64,000 nucleotides of DNA from positions 1-64,000 of the forward strand of contig JAHEHN010000001.1 of assembly GCA_024644515.1 (NCBI GenBank), in the 5' to 3' direction. The position numbers and the translations under genes are program-made. The stretch comes from Gammaproteobacteria bacterium (GTDB lineage Bacteria; Pseudomonadota; Gammaproteobacteria; Pseudomonadales; Pseudohongiellaceae). Under the pieces are notes generated by a model. The model made no database searches. It saw only the letters and a list, made by a program, of their open reading frames with translations, and was not told the DNA's origin. Every line of letters begins with the position of its first letter. The first letter of the stretch is position 1. This document shows, piece by piece, positions 17,982 to 35,360 of this stretch.

Positions 17982-19433
17982 TTAAAATGAAACGTCCCAC
18001 TGCAAACGTAAGCGATTATCAGACTCATCCTGGGCAAAAAACGCGTCATCAAGTGTCAGGCGCGAAAAGTCCATAGTCACCTTGTTGTTGTGGCCATTAA
18101 AGAACCAGTTGGCCCCGACAGTGAATTCCCTGCGCTCGTTTTCCAGGATCCGGCTGCTGGCATTGGGTTCATCAACAAAGGCATAACGCACAGCCAGTTC
18201 AAGCGGTGCCGGGAAGTTTGGAATCAGGTTGCTAAAGAAATAGCCAGCCTGAACATAGCCGCCGGTCAGCTCGTGTGAACTACCATCAGAGTTGTCTTTT
18301 ATGGTTTTACGGTGAAATTCCTGCTGCGCTGAGAAACCTCGATACTTATAGGCAAATTCCTGGACTACCTGGTCTATATCGAATTGACCAAGAGTGGCGT
18401 TGGCTGGTCTGTCGAAGCCGTCAAGATTGCCACAGCCCGAGGAAGACCAGCGAGTACATCTGCCAGTGGTAGTGAAACCTGCAAGAGCGAGGCTGCCTGT
18501 TGGTCGTTCAGTATATTCGACATCCGTTTGGCGCCATGAAAGATCTCGGCCGAGGAAGTTCCATTGCAGGCGGCCCATATACATCATGTCGTTGTCATCA
18601 TTGTTGACCGAGCGGCCTTCACCGTTGAATACACCGGCGTAATAACGCATATCTGCTGGCGTATCCTGGAACAGATGTCCTCGAAGCTGCACGCCAATCT
18701 GTCTATCCATGGTGAATACACGGTTGGCAATTGAACGCTCTACAAATTGTTGTCTACCTGAGGAATCTACACGTTCGCGGTTAAGATCGACCTTCCACTG
18801 ACCCAGGCGAATGCCTCCCCAGTCCCATTTCGCGATATCTATACGCCAGTCAATCACGCGCGCACTTGAGGAAGCGCTACTATCATCGACATCCCGTGAC
18901 GGCTGAAGATCTACCTCGAAATAATAGCTCAGCCAGGGCTGGAAGCCGTGACCACCAATTTTCATACGCAGGCGGCGAGCTTCGAAATTGGACTGTTCCT
19001 CGGCATTAAAATTACGAATCTGTCTCGGGTCAGAACGGTAAGGCGTGGTAAAGCGTGTTTGCGCACGCCACTGCAGATCTGTGCGCCAGTTGCCATCACG
19101 TGTGGCCAGTCGAAAGCCGCTGCTTGTTTCGCTTGCTGTGACCGGAAACTCTTCGTCAATCTGCCTGGCGATTTCGGTAGCAACGCGCTGTTCTATTACC
19201 TCTCCGACTGCTTCTTCTGCCGCTTTTTCCAAAACGACAACCGGCAAAACGTCCCCGCTTGAAAGGGAATCCTTTTCAATTAATGCATCATATTGCTCAG
19301 TTGTTATTGCGCCATTTTGAAGCAATATGTCCAGCAGCTCCTGATCCGCAGCATAGGCCGTGGTTGAGGCTCCCAACAACGCAGCAAGCAGTAGTGCCGG
19401 CTTTAAGTTGAAAGGTGTGTTTTTTAGGTTCAT
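17982..19433 (-). CDS. OprO/OprP-family phosphate-selective porin
   Basis: An outer-membrane channel of 483 residues. From the ATG at 19433 there is a signal peptide ending TAYA, then a short coiled-coil-type N-terminal segment (LLDILLQNGAITTEQYDALIEK) typical of OprO/P-family porins. A beta-rich body follows, ending in Phe (QWDVSF), the usual outer-membrane assembly signal. The frame is open 16 codons further upstream, but that extension would precede the signal peptide. Its place between phoR and pstS strongly suggests phosphate or polyphosphate uptake; selectivity cannot be read from the sequence. Confidence 0.85.
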   Translation of the reverse strand: MNLKNTPFNLKPALLLAALLGASTTAYAADQELLDILLQNGAITTEQYDALIEKDSLSSGDVLPVVVLEKAAEEAVGEVIEQRVATEIARQIDEEFPVTASETSSGFRLATRDGNWRTDLQWRAQTRFTTPYRSDPRQIRNFNAEEQSNFEARRLRMKIGGHGFQPWLSYYFEVDLQPSRDVDDSSASSSARVIDWRIDIAKWDWGGIRLGQWKVDLNRERVDSSGRQQFVERSIANRVFTMDRQIGVQLRGHLFQDTPADMRYYAGVFNGEGRSVNNDDNDMMYMGRLQWNFLGRDLSWRQTDVEYTERPTGSLALAGFTTTGRCTRWSSSGCGNLDGFDRPANATLGQFDIDQVVQEFAYKYRGFSAQQEFHRKTIKDNSDGSSHELTGGYVQAGYFFSNLIPNFPAPLELAVRYAFVDEPNASSRILENERREFTVGANWFFNGHNNKVTMDFSRLTLDDAFFAQDESDNRLRLQWDVSF

Positions 19434-19739
19434 TGAGAAGACTCCATACCGTAGTGATGACCTGTTATTTAGTGGGGGCATTCTTCCAAAGGATTATTAA
19501 GAAATTATAAAGAGCAGGTTAAGTTTTAAAGTTGCAGTTAAATTAATATTAAGAACTCATAAAACAGGCCTTCAGGTAGATTTTTTAAAACCGTCCATTG
19601 TTAAAGGCTTTGGGACATGGAGGCTTGATGGTTCTGCTAAATATTGGAAAGAACTCCAAATCTTTATGAAACCTTAACAGTGTGGTGTGACAATGCCAGC
19701 CATTATGATTGCAACTACTTTTTTTGGAGAACCGTAAAG

Positions 19740-23521: not shown

Positions 23522-24178
23522 ATGTCATTACATTTACAGCGCGATCTTGAAAAGCTGAAGAAAGAAATCCTTAAACTGGGGACTATGGTTGAGTCGGCCA
23601 TTAATAACGCCATCCTTGCGCTTAATAATCGTGAGATGCTGTATGTTGATGAGGTGCTCAGGCTAGAAGATCATATTAATGAAATGGAAGTAAAGATTGA
23701 GGAAGACTGTCTCAAGATTCTTGCATTGCATCAGCCTGTTGCCGGCGACCTTCGATTTATCGTCGTTTCCCTGAAAGTAAATAATGACCTGGAACGGATG
23801 GGCGATTTTGCCAAAAATATTGCCAAACGCGCCAGGGAATTAATGCAGGAGGAGCCCATTTCGACCTTGCCTGAATTCGTTAATGAATTACCCAATCTGG
23901 TCCGTACAATGGTCAGAAACTCTCTCGATGCACTGGTAAAACTTGATGTTAGTCTTGCCAGAGAGGTTATTGCGATGGATGACAAGGTAGATGAAATTAA
24001 TCGTGCCATGTACCAGGAGGTCACAAGGGTCGCTAAAGAAAACGCGTCGAAGACGGGGGTGGCTATCAGTCTTCTTTCAACTTCACGTTACATGGAGCGT
24101 ATCGGCGATTTGAGCACCAATATTGCAGAAGACGTTATATTTATGGTTGAAGGCAGGGTAATCAGGCACGACGATTAA
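23522..24178 (+). CDS. phoU: Phosphate signalling protein PhoU
   Basis: PhoU (218 residues) is a dimeric all-helical cytoplasmic protein that relays PstSCAB status to PhoR and keeps the regulon off when phosphate is plentiful. Two repeated PhoU domains are visible, each with an E-x-x-L...D metal-binding pattern (first around LRLEDHINEMEVKIEED; second around VIAMDDKVDEINRAMYQE), and the RYMERIGDLSTNIAED segment near the end. It completes the pst cluster. The next gene begins only 4 nt after its stop, so transcripts probably continue into the imelysin operon. Confidence 0.95.
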   Translation: MSLHLQRDLEKLKKEILKLGTMVESAINNAILALNNREMLYVDEVLRLEDHINEMEVKIEEDCLKILALHQPVAGDLRFIVVSLKVNNDLERMGDFAKNIAKRARELMQEEPISTLPEFVNELPNLVRTMVRNSLDALVKLDVSLAREVIAMDDKVDEINRAMYQEVTRVAKENASKTGVAISLLSTSRYMERIGDLSTNIAEDVIFMVEGRVIRHDD

Positions 24179-24182
24179 AGCC

Positions 24183-25463
24183 ATGCGATATTTGATACCA
24201 TTTTTTCTTGCTTTAGGCCTGAGCGCCTGCAGCTCCGTTATTTCCACTGACAGTGGTAGCCAGGGAGTTTCACCCGGGGCTATTCTCGACACCTATATTG
24301 CTATTGCCAATGCCGCCTATGAAGATTCGCTTATTACTGCGCGTCAACTGGAACAGTCGGTAGATGTTTTTCTGGCTTCGCCTTCAGCCCTGACTATGCA
24401 ACAGGCACGCAATGCCTGGTTAGCTGCTCGAGTCCCGTATCAGCAAACTGAAGCCTTTCGTTTTGGTAACCGTGTTGTTGACGAATGGGAAGGACGAGTT
24501 AATTCGTGGCCCCTGGATGAAGGGCTGATTGATTATACGGCGGCTTCCTACGGTGAAGAGTCCGACTTCAATTATTTCTATAGCGCCAATGTGATTGCTA
24601 ACGAGATTATTGATCTGGGCGGCATAACCGTTGATGCAGCCATGATTACACCGCAATTACTGGCAGAAAACCTTCACCTGATTGACGGTGTAGAGGCCAA
24701 TGTGGCGACCGGTTACCATGCCATCGAGTTTTTACTTTGGGGCCAGGATCTCAATGGCACCAGTCCCGGTGCGGGTAACCGTCAATGGACTGATTACTCA
24801 CTGCAAAACTGCAGTAATGGAAATTGTGATCGTCGTCGTGATTATCTGAAAGCAGCAACAGAATTGCTGGTAAATGATCTGGAAGAGATGGTTGGCAACT
24901 GGCAACCGGGCGGCGCTGCTTATATGGATTTAATGGGCAAGGGGGAGCAGGCTGGTCTGGCCACGATCCTCACCGGCATGGGTAGTCTGGCCTATGGTGA
25001 ATTGGCAGGAGAGCGTATTCGGCTGGGATTGCTGCTAAATGATCCGGAAGAAGAGCATGACTGTTTTTCGGACAATACCCATCATTCACACTACTATGAT
25101 GCTCTTGGCATCAAAAATGTTTACCTTGGTGAATATCGGCGCGTCTCGGATGAACTTGTTTCCGGGGCATCACTGGCAGATCTTATCTCGCAACAGGCGC
25201 CTGCAATCTCTGCCGAGATGATGGCGCGGCTGGAAGAAACCGAATCAGCTATGCAGAGACTGGTGGATGAAGGCGAGTCCGGCAATACTTTCGACGTACT
25301 GATCGGGCGTGATAATGCGCAGGGGGAAGAAATAATTACCCGCATAGTAGATGCTCTTATGGAAGAGACCCGAACCATTGAAAAAATTATCAATGCGCTC
25401 TCTCTGGTAAATGTGAGTATCGAAGGGTCGGAAAGTCTTGATAATCCCTCGGCTGTTTTATAA
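24183..25463 (+). CDS. Imelysin-family (M75) lipoprotein
   Basis: A 426-residue exported lipoprotein (lipobox LSAC, Cys at 16) of the imelysin/IrpA family. The conserved GxHxxE motif is GYHAIE (residues 178-182), followed by FLLWGQDL, and the YDALGIKNVYLGEY region near residue 300 fits the IrpA-like repeat. Members were first described as insulin-cleaving proteins, but structures argue for a ligand-binding role in iron uptake. It is the first gene of a five-gene run. The 4-nt spacing after phoU leaves no room for a promoter of its own, and the stop overlaps the next gene's start region. Confidence 0.88.
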   Translation: MRYLIPFFLALGLSACSSVISTDSGSQGVSPGAILDTYIAIANAAYEDSLITARQLEQSVDVFLASPSALTMQQARNAWLAARVPYQQTEAFRFGNRVVDEWEGRVNSWPLDEGLIDYTAASYGEESDFNYFYSANVIANEIIDLGGITVDAAMITPQLLAENLHLIDGVEANVATGYHAIEFLLWGQDLNGTSPGAGNRQWTDYSLQNCSNGNCDRRRDYLKAATELLVNDLEEMVGNWQPGGAAYMDLMGKGEQAGLATILTGMGSLAYGELAGERIRLGLLLNDPEEEHDCFSDNTHHSHYYDALGIKNVYLGEYRRVSDELVSGASLADLISQQAPAISAEMMARLEETESAMQRLVDEGESGNTFDVLIGRDNAQGEEIITRIVDALMEETRTIEKIINALSLVNVSIEGSESLDNPSAVL

Positions 25464-26652
25464 GTACTTTTCCCGGGCTTTTTCCATAGCATTGGCAGCG
25501 ACCTGTCTTCCCCTGTTCGCAGCAGACTCACTTATCCCGTCACTGGATTTTATTACCGGCAAGGCCCTGTTTGAAAAAAACTGGGTGTCGTCATTTTCCT
25601 CTACTACAGCCAGTGATGGCCTGGGACCATTTTATAATGCGCGTTCCTGTAACCAGTGCCATCCTGACGGGGGGCGTGGAAGCCGCGAGCAATCTCTTGT
25701 TTTACATGTTAATGATCCTGTTTACGGCCAGCAGCTGCAAAAATTTGCCATTACCGGCTTGCAGCGCGAGGCAGAAGTCAGCCTTGTGTTTGCCGATGTA
25801 AATTTCGATGGCAAGCCATCCGCCCCTACGATAGAACTCAAAAACCTTTCCCGGGGAGCCATGGCCAATGAAGCGCTCTCTGCGCGTATAGCGCCTTCGT
25901 TGCAGGGACTGGGCCTACTGGCGCGCATTCCCGATGACCTTATTCTTGCCATGGCTGACGAGGCGGACAGTAATGGCGATGGTGTTTCCGGTCGGGTGAA
26001 TATGATTAGCGACAATACCGGTGCTACCAGCATTGGCCGGTTTGGCTGGAAAGCCGGGCAGGTGTCCTTGCGTGATCAGTTGGCAAGAGCCCTAAGTCTT
26101 GATCTTGGTCTCGGCAATCCTGTTTTCCCCTCGGCTGCCGGTGACTGCACTGCGGCGCAGACAGAGTGTTTAAACGCTCCCCATGGCAATTCAAGCCATC
26201 ATGACAACCTTGAAACCAATAATCAGGTACTGGATCTTTTGCTGAGCTATATTTCGGGTTTGCCCGCACCATCAAAGGCCAGCCTGGGCGGGTCGCAAGA
26301 GGCGGCCGGCGCAACACTTTTTCGGCAGAGCGGTTGTGCTGCCTGTCACGTGCCCTTTCTGGAAAGCGGAGACCTCAGGCTTACAGCTTATACAGATCTG
26401 CTGTTACACGATATGGGGCCAGGACTGGCAGATGATCTTTCAGAAGGAAGTGCTCTGGGCAGTGAATGGCGAACGCCGCCATTATGGGGGCTGGGAAGCC
26501 TGCAAGGGCAACTTTTACATGATGGGCGCGCAGCAACCATCGAGGAAGCTGTCTGGTGGCATGATGGCGAGGGCGCCGCTGCCAGGGATCATTATGGAAA
26601 TCTCTCACAACAGCAACGTAATGATTTAAACGCGTTTCTGAATGGTTTATAA
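25438..26652 (+). CDS. Di-haem thiol oxidoreductase-like cytochrome (DHOR/DUF1111)
   Basis: An exported c-type cytochrome of 404 residues with two CxxCH haem sites: CNQCH (residues 71-75) and CAACH (about 300-304). The layout, with NARSCNQCHPDGGRG, LSRGAMANEA and WRTPPLWGLG...LHDGRA, matches the DUF1111/DHOR family usually found beside imelysin genes. A TTG start overlapping the preceding gene by 26 nt, with GGA about 6 nt before it, gives a complete signal peptide ending FAAD. The role is probably redox handling in the periplasm, perhaps of iron; unproven. Confidence 0.85.
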   Translation: MIIPRLFYKYFSRAFSIALAATCLPLFAADSLIPSLDFITGKALFEKNWVSSFSSTTASDGLGPFYNARSCNQCHPDGGRGSREQSLVLHVNDPVYGQQLQKFAITGLQREAEVSLVFADVNFDGKPSAPTIELKNLSRGAMANEALSARIAPSLQGLGLLARIPDDLILAMADEADSNGDGVSGRVNMISDNTGATSIGRFGWKAGQVSLRDQLARALSLDLGLGNPVFPSAAGDCTAAQTECLNAPHGNSSHHDNLETNNQVLDLLLSYISGLPAPSKASLGGSQEAAGATLFRQSGCAACHVPFLESGDLRLTAYTDLLLHDMGPGLADDLSEGSALGSEWRTPPLWGLGSLQGQLLHDGRAATIEEAVWWHDGEGAAARDHYGNLSQQQRNDLNAFLNGL

Positions 26653-26667
26653 TGAGAACCGTTCTCA
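26653..26667. promoter_or_regulatory. Fur-box-like 7-1-7 palindrome
   Basis: TGAGAAC-C-GTTCTCA is a perfect 7-1-7 inverted repeat inside an AT-rich flank (ATAA / ATTA). It matches the Fur heptamer arrangement TGATAAT-n-ATTATCA at 10 of 14 arm positions; TGAGAA half-sites are common in Pseudomonas Fur boxes. It touches the stop codon of the DHOR gene and ends 16 nt before the ATG of the second imelysin gene, so it could set a second, iron-responsive promoter inside the operon. Confidence 0.6.
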
Positions 26668-26683
26668 ATTAAAATCTCCTGTT

Positions 26684-27757
26684 ATGAAAAACCTGTACTC
26701 CTGTATATGTATGCTGGCAGCCTTGATTCTCCCCACTCTGGTGTTTGCCCAGGCCAGTGAGGACTGGACCCGGGTAAATCTCTCCGTGACTGATAACCAT
26801 GTCATTCCAGGCTATATCAGTCTTGAAAATGCTGCTGCCGGAATGGCGACTGCGGCCCAATCCTTTTGCCGTTCGCCAAATGCGGCAGGGCTTGAAGCCT
26901 TCAGAAATGGCTTTCATAACAGCATGGATGCCTGGCAACAGATTCAGCATATCCAGTTTGGTCCTATTACCTATTTCAACTGGAATTTCAGGATTCACTA
27001 TTGGCCGGACGAGAAGGGCACCGGAGCCAGACAGCTGGATGACCTGATTGACTCCATGAACAGTGATTCCCTGGCTAAAGATAACTTCGCCAGCGAAAGT
27101 GTCGGGGTCCAGGGTTTTCCGGCGCTGGAAAGACTTTTGTTTGATGATGAAAGCCTGCTTGCTTTCCAGGAAGATAACTATCGCTGCCAGGTAGCTCAGG
27201 CCATCGCACTAAATATCAGTGACATTGCCAGCGGTGTCAGTCAGCGCTGGCGTGATGAATTCAGGACTACTATCGAGAATGCCGATGAGCGGGGATTTTT
27301 TGAAAGTGCCGAAGATGCCACAATTGATTTCCTGAAAGCACAGATAGAGCCTGTGCGCCGAATTCAGCAGCAGAAAGTGGAAGAGGTCATCGGAGATTCC
27401 GCCGCTCGCGCCCGAATTCGACGCGCTGAGTCATGGCGCTCAAATCGCTCCCTGCGCAATCTCAGATTGAATGTTCTGGCACTGGAAAATCTGTTCAGTG
27501 GCAATGAAGGACAGGCAGTTGCCCTTGGAGCTGTTCTGATGTCTGAAGACCGGACGCTCATCAGTGAGGCTTTCCTCACCCTGAAGATGAGACTTGAAGC
27601 GGCGCCAGATTCAATTGAAGAAGCACTCGATGCTGATGACGGCTATGCCCGCTTACAACAGATAGCTGCCGGACTCGATGACCTGTTTGAAGCATTTGAA
27701 GCAGGGCTAAAAAACACTGATCTCTACCTTGGTTTCAATTCCCTGGACGGTGATTAA
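26684..27757 (+). CDS. Second imelysin-family exported protein
   Basis: A 357-residue exported protein, signal peptide ending VFAQA. It belongs to the imelysin superfamily by the VGVQGFPALERLLFDDE segment (the GxxGxPALE form of the family motif) and helix pairs such as DAWQQIQHIQFGP. It differs from the first imelysin: shorter, not a lipoprotein, and lacking the GxHxxE form, so the two are not a recent duplication. The upstream open frame reaches 26642, but the ATG at 26684 starts the signal peptide and leaves the Fur-like palindrome in the leader. Confidence 0.85.
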   Translation: MKNLYSCICMLAALILPTLVFAQASEDWTRVNLSVTDNHVIPGYISLENAAAGMATAAQSFCRSPNAAGLEAFRNGFHNSMDAWQQIQHIQFGPITYFNWNFRIHYWPDEKGTGARQLDDLIDSMNSDSLAKDNFASESVGVQGFPALERLLFDDESLLAFQEDNYRCQVAQAIALNISDIASGVSQRWRDEFRTTIENADERGFFESAEDATIDFLKAQIEPVRRIQQQKVEEVIGDSAARARIRRAESWRSNRSLRNLRLNVLALENLFSGNEGQAVALGAVLMSEDRTLISEAFLTLKMRLEAAPDSIEEALDADDGYARLQQIAAGLDDLFEAFEAGLKNTDLYLGFNSLDGD

Positions 27758-27773
27758 TCCAGCTGGCCTACTG

Positions 27774-28919
27774 ATGAAGTTAGATCGCAGATATTTTCTT
27801 ACCCTTGCCAGCGCCGTTATTGGCTCGCCGGTGCTGGCGGTTGGCCAAAATTCTTCAGACACTACTGCGCTTTTTCTGAGTGCGGCATCAGATAGCGATG
27901 ATCAGCACTGGGTGATTGGCTTTGAGCTTGTCGATGGCAAAAGTGCCGAGAAATTCAGGCATCTGTTGCCGGCCAGGGCTCATCATATCGCTGTACATGA
28001 AGCGCTCGGGGTGTTCGTTGTTATTGCCCGGCGTCCCGGAAATTATTTATGGGTTGGTGATCTGCATAGTGGTGAGCCATTAGCAGAAATTACGGTGCCT
28101 GTTGATCGTCATCTTTATGGCCATGGTGTGTTTTCAGAAGACGGTCGTCATTTTTATGCGCCTGAGAATGCCTGGCAGCTGATCAATGGTGACAGCGGCA
28201 GAGTTGTTGCCTGGCAGGTCAGTCGTGACAGTCAGGGGTTTTCTATGGTGCGCGCCGGGGATTTTCCCAGTTACGGTACCGGTCCCCATGAGTTATTACT
28301 TAAACCAGATCAGAACACCCTGGTGGTTGCCAATGGCGGCATTCGCACTCATCCAGAACGTCCACGGGAAAAACTCAATATCCCCTCCATGGAGCCGTCG
28401 CTGGTTTATATGGATGCAGTTACTGGTGAGTTGCAGGAGCAACATATGCTGGATGCTGAATACCATCAGGCAAGTATTCGGCATATTGATCAGAATGCTT
28501 CCGGACAGATAGTGATCGGTATGCAATACGAGGGTGAGCCTTTTGCTCGTGCCCCTTTACTTGCCCTGCATGAACAGGACAAGCCCCTGCAATTATTATG
28601 GGCACCAGAGCCACAGCAGGGGCAGATGAAACAATATATAGGCTCGGTACGATATGATCGCAGTGGCCGGTTTTTTGCCGCCAGTAGTCCGCGTGGCAAC
28701 ATGATCAGTTTCTGGGATGTTGCAACTGGAGAAATGATAAAGTCACTGCGCTCTCGTGACGGTTGCGGTCTGTGTGCCATAGAGCAGGGCTTTCTGTTTA
28801 CTGCAGGCAGTGGGCGAATTACTCAATACGATATGGTCAGGGATGAAATAGAAGCGTTGAATTCCGGGTCTTTTGGCAAAGTGTTCTGGGATAATCACCT
28901 GAGTATGATTGCGCGATGA
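27774..28919 (+). CDS. DUF1513 Tat-exported beta-propeller-like protein
   Basis: A 381-residue protein of the DUF1513 family, which accompanies imelysin/DHOR genes. The N-terminus MKLDRRYFLTLASA carries an RR-x-F-L twin-arginine signal and ends near VLA, so it is likely folded in the cytoplasm and exported by Tat. The body has repeated short strands (HIAVHEALGVFVVIARRPG, GHGVFSEDGRHFYAPEN, RHIDQNASGQIVIGMQYEG) in the manner of a propeller. It contains a CGLC pair near the C-terminus. Its stop overlaps the start of the peroxidase gene (ATGA). Confidence 0.82.
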   Translation: MKLDRRYFLTLASAVIGSPVLAVGQNSSDTTALFLSAASDSDDQHWVIGFELVDGKSAEKFRHLLPARAHHIAVHEALGVFVVIARRPGNYLWVGDLHSGEPLAEITVPVDRHLYGHGVFSEDGRHFYAPENAWQLINGDSGRVVAWQVSRDSQGFSMVRAGDFPSYGTGPHELLLKPDQNTLVVANGGIRTHPERPREKLNIPSMEPSLVYMDAVTGELQEQHMLDAEYHQASIRHIDQNASGQIVIGMQYEGEPFARAPLLALHEQDKPLQLLWAPEPQQGQMKQYIGSVRYDRSGRFFAASSPRGNMISFWDVATGEMIKSLRSRDGCGLCAIEQGFLFTAGSGRITQYDMVRDEIEALNSGSFGKVFWDNHLSMIAR

Positions 28920-30079
28920 AATATCCAATAACGTTGACTCTGCTTTTTTCGTTTTGCCTTTCTCTGCTGGCGTTGCCGGCTGTTGCCGATGAAAAAGCAG
29001 ATGATTACCAGACCAGGCTGGAAGACCTCGGACGCGCCCTGTTTTTTGATGTCAGCCTGTCCCGTGATCGCACCCAGGGTTGTGGCACCTGCCACGATCC
29101 TTCCCAGGCATTCATAGACTGGCGGGAAAACGGGGTTCGCCGGGCACTATCCATGGGCAATGACATGCATTCCCTGGGCGACCGTAACGCGCCGACACTA
29201 TCCTATGCGGCCATGATTCCGGATTTTTATCGCAATATTGAAGGCGATTATGTCGGTGGCCTGTTCTGGGATGGCAGGGAAGCAGATCTTGAAGGTCAGG
29301 CCGGTGGACCCTTTCTGAATCCTTTGGAAATGCAAATGACTGATAAGGCCGCTGTTGTGGCCCGTTTGCAGGAACACACGCTTTTTCCGCGGGCGTTCAA
29401 AAGCCTGTTTGGGGAGGATGTGTTTGAAGATACTGATATGGCCTTCCGACGCATGACCGAAGCCATTGCGGCGTTTGAGCGTACCGACTTCTTTTCTCCT
29501 TTTGATTCAAAATATGACCGTTACCTAAAGGGAGAGTATGAACCCACGGTTCAGGAAGAACTGGGGATGACGCTGTTTTTCTCCCAGCAGTTCAGCAACT
29601 GTAACCAGTGTCACCAGTTAAAAACTTTTGCCGAGAGTGAAGGTGAAACCTTTTCCAGTTACAAGTATTTCAACATTGGTACCCCGGTAAACCGCGAAGC
29701 CAGACAGGTGAACGGACTGGGCATGGAGCATATTGATCGTGGCTTGCTGGAAAACCCCCATGTCAATGATCCAGCCGAGGCCGGTAAATTCAAAACGCCT
29801 ACCCTGCGTAATGTGGCACTTACGGCCCCCTATATGCACAACGGCGTGTTTCAGGATCTGAAAACAGTGGTGCAGTTTTACAACAAGTACAATGTTCGTG
29901 GTAAAGCGGCAGATATCAATCCTGCAACAGGCGAGTCCTGGGCTGAACCGGAAGTTTCAGACAATATCGATCTGGAAAAATTGCAATCTACGCCAGCTCT
30001 GGATGAGCGTCGTATTGATGCCCTGGTAGCCTTCATGAAAATGCTCACTGATAAACGCTACGAACATCTGGTGCAATAG
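28916..30079 (+). CDS. MauG/CcpA-like di-haem cytochrome c peroxidase
   Basis: A periplasmic di-haem protein of 387 residues with a signal peptide ending VADE. Haem sites are CGTCH (56-60) and CNQCH (about 229-233). Other family marks are LGRALFFDVSLSRD, RNAPTLSYA, FWDGREADLEGQ and the C-terminal FKTPTLRNVALTAPYMHNGVF. It belongs to the cytochrome c peroxidase/MauG superfamily; peroxidase versus oxidase activity cannot be decided. It is the last gene of the imelysin operon, translationally coupled to DUF1513, and adds a second di-haem protein to the set. It converges with the methyltransferase gene. Confidence 0.87.
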   Translation: MKYPITLTLLFSFCLSLLALPAVADEKADDYQTRLEDLGRALFFDVSLSRDRTQGCGTCHDPSQAFIDWRENGVRRALSMGNDMHSLGDRNAPTLSYAAMIPDFYRNIEGDYVGGLFWDGREADLEGQAGGPFLNPLEMQMTDKAAVVARLQEHTLFPRAFKSLFGEDVFEDTDMAFRRMTEAIAAFERTDFFSPFDSKYDRYLKGEYEPTVQEELGMTLFFSQQFSNCNQCHQLKTFAESEGETFSSYKYFNIGTPVNREARQVNGLGMEHIDRGLLENPHVNDPAEAGKFKTPTLRNVALTAPYMHNGVFQDLKTVVQFYNKYNVRGKAADINPATGESWAEPEVSDNIDLEKLQSTPALDERRIDALVAFMKMLTDKRYEHLVQ

Positions 30080-32002: not shown

Positions 32003-32407
32003 ATGTTACTTAACAGAGCAAGATCGCTGGCTTTAATGGCCACAGCACTGGTTTTATTCATGGGCAATTCGCTGGCGTGGGCACATCATTCTTTTGCCGC
32101 TGCCTACAATATGGACAACCCGATCGAAATAACCGGCAAAATTGTCAATGTCCGCCTGACCAATCCTCATTCCTACTTTTTCCTTGATGTTGAAGGGGAA
32201 AACGGCGAAATGCAGCGCTGGTCATTCGAAGCCGGCACACCCAGTGGAATGATTCGTGGTGGTTATTCCCCCGAGGTCATCAAGGAAGGGGATATGGTGA
32301 CTATAGGCGGCTTTCGCGCACGCGATGAATCCACCAATGGCATGCTGACAAAACTGGTAACTTCTGATGGTACCGAATATGGCATGTTTGGACCCAGGGA
32401 AAGGTAA
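32003..32407 (+). CDS. DUF6152 family exported protein
   Basis: A 134-residue protein with a signal peptide ending AWAHH and the DUF6152 pattern: HHSFAAAYNMDNPIEITGKI, then VRLTNPHSYFFLDVEGENG. His residues follow directly after the cleavage site. Function unknown. A strong GGAGG precedes the start. The next gene (32440) begins 32 nt downstream and encodes the domain with which a DUF6152 domain is fused at 34215-35360, implying that the two products act together. Confidence 0.8.
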   Translation: MLLNRARSLALMATALVLFMGNSLAWAHHSFAAAYNMDNPIEITGKIVNVRLTNPHSYFFLDVEGENGEMQRWSFEAGTPSGMIRGGYSPEVIKEGDMVTIGGFRARDESTNGMLTKLVTSDGTEYGMFGPRER

Positions 32408-32439
32408 GCCGGGGTAAGGGAAGAAAAGAGGCAATAAAA

Positions 32440-33207
32440 ATGAAAATACTCAATGGTAATTTACTAGTCGCACTGGCCGCTCTGGCGTTTGTTTTTTCGG
32501 CAGCTGCACAGGATGGCGGGGAAATTCCGCGCATGGCTGATGGCAAGCCCGATCTTAGTGGTGTCTGGTGGACCGGGGGCGATCTTGGCAGTGCTGGCTA
32601 TGGCAGTACCACTGACAGAAGTGCCGGCTTGCAATACAACCTTTACACCGATCTTTACACCCCGGAAGCAGCGCAGCGTATGGCGACCCTGAGCGACAAG
32701 GATGACCCGACACTGCAGTGCAAACCCACCGCCTTTGGCACTCTCAGTGTGCGCCTGTTTGATGTCGGTGCCGTAGGGCAGATCGTTGCGACGCCAGATA
32801 TGATGATTTTTCTGCAGGAGACTTTCCATGGTTATCAACTGATTCCCACCGATGGTCGCAAACATCGCTTTTTGCCGCCTTCCTATCGTGGTGATGCCGT
32901 TGGGCATTGGGAAGGTGACACTTTCGTAGTGGAAACCGTCAACTTTACCGATGATACCTGGATGTTTGCCGAAGGCGGTGTGTCGTTTCATTCCGACCAG
33001 CTGCGTATTGTTGAACGCTATAACATGGCTGATGCCAATACCCTGCGTATTGACGCCACCATTTATGATCCAGGTGTACTAACCGAGCCCTGGGTAGTAC
33101 CTACCAAGACTCTGGTGCTGGCCCCCTTTGACCAGTTGTTACCGCTGATATGTTCCGGGGTAGAAACCCAGGAAAGAATGGATGGGGCTTCTGCAGCCGG
33201 GCAATAG
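32440..33207 (+). CDS. Exported protein with PDLSGVW/WEGDT motifs
   Basis: A 255-residue secreted protein, signal peptide ending SAAAQ. Characteristic motifs are GKPDLSGVWW after the signal, LQCKPTAF, and GHWEGDTFVVETVNFTDDTW followed by LRIVERYN. Proteins with these motifs are common in marine and environmental proteobacteria, often beside DUF6152 genes, but no biochemical role is known to me. The same C-terminal block is the second half of the fused protein at 34215-35360. Confidence 0.75.
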   Translation: MKILNGNLLVALAALAFVFSAAAQDGGEIPRMADGKPDLSGVWWTGGDLGSAGYGSTTDRSAGLQYNLYTDLYTPEAAQRMATLSDKDDPTLQCKPTAFGTLSVRLFDVGAVGQIVATPDMMIFLQETFHGYQLIPTDGRKHRFLPPSYRGDAVGHWEGDTFVVETVNFTDDTWMFAEGGVSFHSDQLRIVERYNMADANTLRIDATIYDPGVLTEPWVVPTKTLVLAPFDQLLPLICSGVETQERMDGASAAGQ

Positions 33208-33270
33208 AGCTTTTTGATTCAAACTTAACGATGCGTCCGGCGCCTGCCGCCGGGCCTGTCGTGCATTCAG

Positions 33271-34011
33271 TTACTGATACTTTCTTCTTTCCCAGACCTC
33301 TTTCTGGTAAATCCCGCCATCGGGTTTACGATATTTCTCGCTATTGGCCTGATTTTTGGTTTCCATTTCTTCAAGTGACAATGACACGTCAATCTCTGCT
33401 TCCCAGTGCTCTCTTTTGAAAGGAATAATCTGGGCATAAGGGGTGCCGGCGGGAAGAATGCCGGTGATGCCCTTGAGAAAGAAAAACGGCATGGTGCCGG
33501 GCAGATGAACCTTGTCATTATCGACAATGCCGCTGGTGGTCAGGAAGGGCAGTTCAAAGCGGTTCATGGGCTGGGTATACAGTGCACTGTAGCCTTCCGG
33601 CAATTCCACCGCCCAGTCGGCCCACCAGGCGAAATGTTTCTGATGATAGCCCTGGGGATGTGGAAACTGATTCAGCGGCATCCGCTCTACGAGGAAATTT
33701 GCATAACGATCGTCAAGTACCCGACCATGAATATTGCCTTCGGCATCTTCAAAAAATTCCAGATCGCAGGGAGTCTTGTAGGTATAGCCACTGCCCATGA
33801 CATCAAATACCGCCGGACAGGCTTTCCAGGTTGGGATCTTGCCGCCGGTTTCGGGCATTTTCCAGTGTTTACCGCTTGCCGGATCACGTGCGAAACGATC
33901 TGCATTGCGGTACCACTCAGGAATGGTTTTGAGTATGGGTTCCGGTTTGGAAATGCTTTCTTTGGTTAACCATGGGCGGTTGGAAACAAACTTGATTTTC
34001 TTGGTATCCAC
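33271..34011 (-). CDS. Uncharacterised protein, resembles phage/marine IPEWY family
   Basis: A 246-residue soluble protein with no signal peptide. It has a KPEPILKTIPEWYRNA N-terminal motif, ACPAVFDVMGSGYTYKTPCDLEF in the middle and a Trp-rich HFAWWADWAVELPEGY segment. I recall similar architecture (IPxWYK, CPxxxDxxxxGY, then a DL strand) in uncharacterised proteins of marine phages and bacteria, so a transferred gene is possible, but this is memory, not a search. It lies between the split and fused DUF6152 genes, on the same strand as the fused one. Confidence 0.6.
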   Translation of the reverse strand: MDTKKIKFVSNRPWLTKESISKPEPILKTIPEWYRNADRFARDPASGKHWKMPETGGKIPTWKACPAVFDVMGSGYTYKTPCDLEFFEDAEGNIHGRVLDDRYANFLVERMPLNQFPHPQGYHQKHFAWWADWAVELPEGYSALYTQPMNRFELPFLTTSGIVDNDKVHLPGTMPFFFLKGITGILPAGTPYAQIIPFKREHWEAEIDVSLSLEEMETKNQANSEKYRKPDGGIYQKEVWERRKYQ

Positions 34012-34155
34012 GATGGGCTTCCTTGAGGTCCTGATTCTTTGCGGTGAGTGTCAAAGTTATTAATTTAAACGATTGGCGCAGGAAAAGGGACAGGAAAAGC
34101 GTAAATAAATTTTTCCCTGTACTATTTTTGATCTGGAGTCTGAGTAGCAGGCAAT

Positions 34156-34186
34156 AAAAAAGGCTAGGGTTAGCCGGCCTTTTTTT
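34156..34186 (-). terminator. Rho-independent terminator after the fused DUF6152 gene
   Basis: AAAAAAGGC (34156-34164) pairs with GCCTTTTTT (34177-34185) around a 12-nt loop that contains a smaller TAGGG/TAGCC element. Read on the minus strand it ends in a U-run, 29 nt beyond the stop of the gene at 34215. Confidence 0.75.
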
Positions 34187-34214
34187 ATGCTGATCAAGGA
34201 TCAGAGTAGTCTAT

Positions 34215-35360
34215 TTAATTCTGCTGGAACTCAGGGGTCATTTCCTTGCATTCCTGTGCCTGGAAAGGCACATCTGAAAGATACATGACATCATAGCTTT
34301 CATAGGGCGCGGCCAGATAGACTGGATCAGTGACTGAATATTCGCGCTTGAGTGCCATTTTTTCAGTGTCCAGAGAGAAGCGCTCCACGATATGCATCTG
34401 CTCACTGCTGCGTGAAGGTGGCGTCAGAACCCCTTCCGCGAAACCGATAGTATCAACCACCAGTGTGTCGCCTTCCCAGTTGCCAATGGAGTGACCGGCA
34501 TAGCTGGGCTCAATGTTGGCTGGATGCTCGGTCATGCCTATATGGATGCGGCGATTCAGGTTGTACAGGCCATAGGTGATATCAATAACCTTTTCACCCT
34601 GCGCAGTAGTAGTTTGCCGGAACTGGTTTATTGGCCAGTCTGCAGTCCAGTCACGAATAAAACTGGTGGGTTTGCAGTCGAACCAGGGGTTGTCGATAGG
34701 TGAGCGGCTGTCAAAGGCATCGGCAGCAGCCTGACCTCTTTCGGTATAGACCACCTGTGGTCTTGGCGGTTGCGTGGCACGAACATCTTCAATGCTGATG
34801 CTGCCTGCAGCAAAGGCGGGAGACATGCTCTTGGGAATCATGGAGCCGCGGCCACCACTGGGAGGTACCGTCAGCACCAGCTGTTCCACCGCCCAGTCAC
34901 CGCTTATATTAAGCTGGCCATCAGCAAGGCGCAGAGGGCGATCAGAGGTATCCACAGGGGCAGTGGAGAGCAACTGATCATTGCGGTTCATGGTGATTTC
35001 ATCATCGATGGTGAAGGTCTCGATATAGCAGGCTTCAGGATCATCACGGTGAGGATTACCCTCGATTTTTACATGGGAGCCGACCTTGAACATATCGGTG
35101 GACCAGCCAGAGCGTCTGATCAGCGTACCGGCGCGCATTTCACAGCGCATATGCAGAACATTGCCGTCTGCCTCCACAACATCCAGTTCCATATAGGAAT
35201 GCGGGTTGACCAGGTTCATCTTGGTGAGCGTGCCTTCCCATTCTTTTTTAATTTCCAGCTGGAACAGACCGAAACCATGGTGAGCCAGCACCGGGCTGGC
35301 CAGTCCTGCGATTAGTGCGCTGGCAGCAGCCGTACGAAGAATTCTTTGAGTGTTAAGCAT
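34215..35360 (-). CDS. DUF6152 domain fused to a WEGDT-motif domain
   Basis: A 381-residue exported protein (signal peptide ending VLAHH). Residues about 25-125 form a DUF6152 domain (HHGFGLFQLEIKKEWEGTL, LVNPHSYMELDV). Residues about 140-375 match the partner protein at 32440: GQLNISGDW, FDCKPTSF, GNWEGDTLVVDTIGF, HIVERFSLD. It is therefore a single-chain version of the neighbouring two-gene pair and a Rosetta-stone link between the two domains. Function unknown; an AHH N-terminus after cleavage suggests metal binding, as inference only. Confidence 0.8.
   Translation of the reverse strand: MLNTQRILRTAAASALIAGLASPVLAHHGFGLFQLEIKKEWEGTLTKMNLVNPHSYMELDVVEADGNVLHMRCEMRAGTLIRRSGWSTDMFKVGSHVKIEGNPHRDDPEACYIETFTIDDEITMNRNDQLLSTAPVDTSDRPLRLADGQLNISGDWAVEQLVLTVPPSGGRGSMIPKSMSPAFAAGSISIEDVRATQPPRPQVVYTERGQAAADAFDSRSPIDNPWFDCKPTSFIRDWTADWPINQFRQTTTAQGEKVIDITYGLYNLNRRIHIGMTEHPANIEPSYAGHSIGNWEGDTLVVDTIGFAEGVLTPPSRSSEQMHIVERFSLDTEKMALKREYSVTDPVYLAAPYESYDVMYLSDVPFQAQECKEMTPEFQQN

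Follow-up and report, generated by a model that had tools for sequence, protein, structure and literature searches.

Gene set behind pstSCAB-phoU

The window, that is, the whole 64-kb stretch of DNA analysed here, carries on its forward strand a pstSCAB-phoU cluster whose last gene, phoU (23522..24178; TIGR02135 phoU_full, 207.9 bits against a cut-off of 130.25), is adjacent to and collinear with a set of five further genes on the same strand. The first of these, imelysin 1 (24183..25463; PF09375, Peptidase_M75, 284 bits), encodes a lipoprotein of the ICMP/PA4370 type with the lipobox LSAC and the GxHxxE motif in the form GYHAIE at residue 177, its nearest solved relative being Pseudomonas aeruginosa ICMP (PDB 7xrx, E=2e-114). 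It is followed by a di-haem oxidoreductase, DHOR (DUF1111; 25438..26652; PF06537, 191 bits), with CxxCH motifs at residues 71 and 300, which begins at a TTG codon that overlaps imelysin 1 by 26 nt and is kept in four relatives of the genus. Imelysin 2 (26684..27757; PF09375, 154.7 bits) is of the IPPA/PA4372 type, has GFPALE as its GxxxxE motif and matches IPPA (PDB 3pf0, E=1.9e-14); an upstream ATG at 26642 was rejected as its start, the start with a signal peptide being that at 26684. A DUF1513 protein with a Tat-type signal, RRYFL (27774..28919; PF07433, 322.8 bits), and a MauG-like di-haem enzyme of the CCP_MauG family (28916..30079; PF03150, 153 bits) complete the set.

Open reading frames, profile matches and motifs thus bear out the five genes in the places and families that a preliminary description of the locus had given them. 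The four haems named in it correspond to four CxxCH motifs, two in DHOR and two in the MauG-like protein, and the propeller that it ascribed to DUF1513 is backed by a predicted structure (AF2, pLDDT 88), all-beta, with many beta-propeller matches in the PDB. Counted from phoU, the successive junctions measure +4, -26, +31, +16 and -4 nt. No Shine-Dalgarno-like sequence stands ahead of the imelysin 1 ATG, nor ahead of most genes of the operon, and for the latter reason leaderless translation of imelysin 2, suggested by its missing Shine-Dalgarno, was dropped.

The predicted Fur box and the phoU junction

The 31-nt gap between DHOR and imelysin 2 had been taken for a plain short gap. It holds a perfect palindromic Fur box, TGAGAACCGTTCTCA (26653..26667), which abuts the DHOR stop codon ahead of imelysin 2 and is the sole 15/15 match in the window to the pattern used for the scans, TGADAAYNRTTHTCA. 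A scan of the whole genome gave 7 sites for this pattern and 0 for its reversed control. Another of these sites is found 50 nt upstream of a gene for a TonB siderophore-type receptor and a further one 28 nt upstream of a gene for a ferric ABC binding protein, both genes being identified by sequence reading and not by family search. With a single FUR-family gene in the genome, there is no ambiguity as to which protein would read the box.

In the genus of the window (g1) the box is kept at the same codon of the DHOR/imelysin 2 junction in 6/6 genomes, and in the sister genus g8 it occupies the same place in two of three, intact in one and weakened (13/15) in the other. The sister genus g2 carries a full Fur box ahead of imelysin 1 instead (5/5 genomes), preceded by a TTGACA-like -35 element. 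The three genera form a trichotomy, so that no direction can be assigned between the two positions of the box. In g1, neither the end of phoU nor the gap between phoU and imelysin 1 contains a Fur box better than 12/15. Two candidate promoters, both consensus matches and neither of them strong, lie at the internal site: a sigma-70 type TTTATA-N18-TAAAAT on the forward strand, which spans the Fur box (26646..26675), and an alternative TTTAAA-N17-TATAAT (26625-26653). A TTAGAAT-like -10 element recurs in the relatives of the genus, 5-8 nt ahead of the ATG of imelysin 2.

Fur would be expected to bind at the predicted 26653 box, which would divide the genes into two plus three, and the transcription units proposed here are predictions of the same kind; judged from sequence, the five genes are probably not one regulatory unit, contrary to their earlier description as a single operon. 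The iron link, drawn in that description from gene names, is made directly visible by the box.

A neighbourhood comparison (tblastn of the window proteins against the loci of relatives) showed that in three genera of the family pst-phoU leads into these five genes in unchanged order, and the five-gene order is therefore not a product of chance. Among the 14 family genomes with the operon (six of g1, five of g2 and three of g8), phoU is directly ahead in 12, so the concern that the phoU link might be confined to this genome did not hold. None of the examined loci outside the family has the link, and the core of four genes is found widely without phoU, for instance in Neptunomonas, Bordetella and Rhodobacterales. 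The phoU link is thus characteristic of the family, being more than a peculiarity of one genome and less than a general arrangement. In all genomes of the genus the phoU stop and the imelysin 1 start are separated by 3-4 nt, a remnant of phoU in one of them (G005) included; the 4-nt junction reported as new is thus indeed tight and conserved in the genus, although it is not unique to this genome. The gap contains no terminator-like site, and no conserved promoter was seen in the tail of phoU, where conserved positions track codons. For a transcription start in the interval from phoU to imelysin 1, which the preliminary description had named as evidence against the link, g2 offers a strong candidate and the genus of the window none. 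The spacing without a Shine-Dalgarno sequence would fit translational coupling, a weak feature when taken alone, and it is only this spacing that suggests read-through from pst.

Phosphate starvation as a switch fared less well, since position is what would point to it and the sequence adds no positive sign beyond that. A search of the window and, in 12 genomes, of the 400 nt that precede pstS gave Pho-box matches at chance level in the genus, as judged with the E. coli consensus, from which a divergent box may depart. Moreover, pst-phoU was lost twice. In G005, neither PstC nor PhoU is encoded anywhere in the genome; there, phoR precedes a relic of the phoU end (reading TNIAEDVIFMIEGKLVKH* D*), after which imelysin 1 begins with the spacing unchanged, and G018 has lost pst-phoU and kept the operon with its Fur promoter. 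The retention of the operon in both genomes indicates that the module can do without pst.

That the whole set belongs to the phosphate regulon, with PhoB driving pstSCAB-phoU and read-through activating the iron module, would agree with the terminator-free 3-4 nt gap, with the link in 12 of 14 family genomes and with the place of the set directly behind phoR in G005 after pst-phoU was gone. This is nevertheless unlikely in view of the chance-level Pho-box matches at pstS, the two operons that outlived pst and phoU, the candidate Fur promoter between phoU and imelysin 1 in g2 and the internal Fur box, which gives the last three genes separate control. Somewhat less doubtful, if still a minority view, is that a Fur-controlled operon landed behind phoU by chance in the ancestor of the family and that imelysin 1 and DHOR depend on a weak, unrecognised promoter. 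The restriction of the link to one family, the independent Fur promoter of g2 and the two genomes that do without pst are in its favour, but the constant spacing in the genus, relic included, and the lack of a Fur box upstream of imelysin 1 there both suggest a junction in use. Altogether, iron rather than phosphate appears to be the best-supported control of the gene set.

The MauG-like enzyme and its partners

The closest solved relative of the fifth protein is MauG of Paracoccus denitrificans, matched over the full length (416 bits, E about 1e-123). It scores below the family cut-offs both for the TTQ-forming MauG (TIGR03791, 93.6 bits against 443.85) and for MbnH (TIGR04039, 166.2 bits against 362.85). 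The genome has no mauA gene, PF02975 being absent in G000 and G002-G006 and giving one partial match in G001. The identity as a TTQ-forming MauG was rejected on the missing mauA and the score below cut-off.

In MauG, Tyr294 is the axial ligand of haem 2, Trp93 lies between the haems and Trp199 is the exit residue at the interface with preMADH. The window protein keeps Tyr294, together with Gln103, Pro107, Glu113, Thr275 and Pro277, and has a 3-residue insertion before haem 2 relative to P. denitrificans MauG. Trp93 is present in it and replaced by Leu, Met, Val or Arg in the sister genomes. Trp199 is absent, a weak discriminator because it is also absent in the mauA-linked relatives of the family.

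MauG acts on preMADH and MbnH on MbnP, and by analogy the window enzyme might oxidise a Trp or Tyr of a partner and so bring a metal-binding or redox site of an imelysin, of DHOR or of DUF1513 to maturity. The relationship to MauG, the conserved Tyr ligand with its five companion residues and the presence of the quinohemoprotein amine dehydrogenase beta subunit among the fold matches of the DUF1513 propeller would speak for this. It is nonetheless improbable, given that Trp93 is not kept in the sister genomes, that the exit residue is missing, that no partner residue could be pinpointed and that propeller matches are very common. An ordinary periplasmic peroxidase, clearing H2O2 around ferrous-iron handling in iron-starved cells, is a more plausible role, though still a tentative one; it would suit membership of the CCP_MauG family, an accessory place at imelysin/DHOR loci and the general link between iron limitation and oxidative stress. 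Against a classical bacterial CCP stands the Tyr294-type ligand, a criterion that separates such enzymes from the Met/His of typical members (PMC7567364).

MauG-like genes were searched for in 398 genomes of the phylum and 294 of the order. Outside the family 53 loci were found; in 22 of them, or 23 if one truncated contig is counted, imelysin/DHOR genes lie no more than about 9 kb away, the MauG-like gene standing upstream of them, downstream or divergent. DHOR is encoded by 20 of 22 carrier genomes against 105 of 398 (26%) overall (Fisher p = 9e-11), a p-value that, like the other given here for co-occurrence, ignores shared ancestry, the carriers spanning about 11 families. The two carriers without DHOR (G164 and G444) also lack Tyr294, with Lys and Leu, respectively. 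In the order, 12/18 of the unlinked MauG-like genes have an upstream Fur-like box of at least 13/15, as compared with 12/144 control ORFs from the same loci (p = 7e-8). Across Pseudomonadota, imelysin/DHOR clusters repeatedly have a MauG-like enzyme as a partner; the addition that had been called new is therefore present at this locus without being peculiar to it. The literature searched contained no published link between imelysin and MauG, or between pstB, phoU and imelysin.

In an unrooted tree of 73 sequences, sampled by similarity to the window protein, mauA-linked MauGs branch at two distinct positions, with imelysin-linked and unlinked members around them: P. denitrificans MauG falls among the alphaproteobacterial members, and the mauA-linked genes of the family stand beside its imelysin-linked clade. 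A single clade of imelysin-linked MauG was rejected, as the tree forces at least 7 label changes. It can be speculated, with considerable reserve, that the Tyr-ligated MauG family primarily serves iron limitation together with imelysin and DHOR, and that TTQ MauG was recruited from it at least twice.

An iron-limitation module and its known counterparts

Based on the available evidence, the gene set is probably an iron-limitation redox module of the periplasm and outer membrane, of the icmP (PA4370) type with a MauG-like enzyme added, and under split control. The two imelysins, a lipoprotein with GxHxxE and a second one without the His, would bind iron or other metal species; DHOR and the MauG-like enzyme would contribute haem-based redox chemistry at that same site, and the Tat-exported DUF1513 propeller could act as scaffold or docking partner. 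Under low iron, a promoter located at the DHOR stop codon and otherwise repressed by Fur would drive imelysin 2, DUF1513 and the MauG-like gene, while imelysin 1 and DHOR would most likely share the pst-phoU transcript and be coupled to it in translation. We infer the ligand and the chemistry of the module. Of the periplasmic iron or metal redox machine first proposed, the iron-related exported redox module is retained and phosphate starvation as its switch is not.

Both the 2011 structural paper and the other literature consulted describe the role of imelysins as still unclear. A recurrent accessory enzyme with the well-studied chemistry of MauG offers a concrete handle on it, as the partners of this enzyme can be assayed for whether they become oxidised, bind metal or form complexes. 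Natural rewiring experiments are likewise available within the family, with the Fur box in two alternative places and pst-phoU lost twice, and a comparison of the sister genera can test whether phosphate and iron responses were joined.

Among known systems, the nearest are P. aeruginosa PA4370(icmP)-PA4373 and Vibrio cholerae VC1264-VC1266, which are Fur-regulated and have the same order of GxHxxE imelysin, DHOR/DUF1111 and GxxxxE IPPA-type imelysin (PMC3143127). All three of these genes are present together in the window, with a conserved, perfect predicted Fur box at the operon. In the P. aeruginosa operon DUF1513 comes fourth, as in the order seen in the relatives, PA4373 being presumably the DUF1513 member. 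The earlier likening of the first four genes to the iron-related icmP region is accordingly upheld by families, order and Fur box. The window set differs in that its Fur box is at the DHOR/imelysin 2 junction, before imelysin 2 and not imelysin 1, that its first gene lies directly behind pst-phoU and that its fifth gene is MauG-like. With regard to ligands, published thermal-shift tests on two imelysins, PIBO and IPPA, gave no stabilisation by ferric ion or haem and hence no sign of specific iron binding, which counts against the iron reading (PMC3143127).

The lruB-DHOR-imelysin operon of Leptospira shares the imelysin-DHOR-imelysin core and is induced by iron chelation with dipyridyl, according to the available part of the report, where neither a MauG-like gene nor a phoU linkage is mentioned (PMC13066512). 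With P. denitrificans MauG the window enzyme has in common two c-haems, Tyr294, Trp93, Pro107 and Glu113, and is set apart from it by the missing Trp199, a genome without mauA and the score below the TIGR03791 cut-off. The ferrous-iron system EfeUOB/M likewise combines an imelysin-domain protein and a haem peroxidase under iron control; in contrast, the window set lacks an EfeU permease and a cupredoxin domain, and its DHOR is a di-haem protein of the c type, EfeB being a DyP-type peroxidase (PMC3577903). An icmP-type iron-starvation gene set is already known, and to it this locus adds an extra haem enzyme, an internal Fur box and the position behind phoU.

A phoU relic in a relative of the window genome

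Between phoR and the first imelysin gene of G005, a relative that carries the five-gene imelysin operon and lacks pst-phoU, a phoU relic of about 18 codons plus stops is present (locus L106, contig C19, 8268-8392). This relic is a fossil of the phoU/imelysin 1 junction.

Genes flanking the window operon

Divergent from pstS, the window encodes a porin-like protein (17982-19481, minus strand), which matched the NCBIfam model of the ExtI porin weakly, below the cut-off. On the 3' side of the operon, past two minus-strand genes, several exported proteins of unknown function are encoded (32003-35360).

MauG-like genes and their neighbors

In genome G547, a putative ABC uptake operon, read as zinc/manganese-type, lies directly 3' of a MauG-like gene (L192, 9034-13150), and a Fur-like box (14/15 match) was detected 89 nt upstream at this MauG-like locus. 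In genus g3 of the same family (Pseudohongiellaceae), a MauG-like gene adjoins mauA, encoding the methylamine dehydrogenase (MADH) light chain, at L202, L203, and L204; no DUF1513/imelysin operon was found in the g3 members carrying these loci.

The MauG-like protein of the window (P0005; 28916-30079, plus strand) scored 416 bits against the crystallised MauG of P. denitrificans vs 94 bits against TIGR03791, the NCBIfam MauG model, and based on these scores TIGR03791 may cover a different subgroup.
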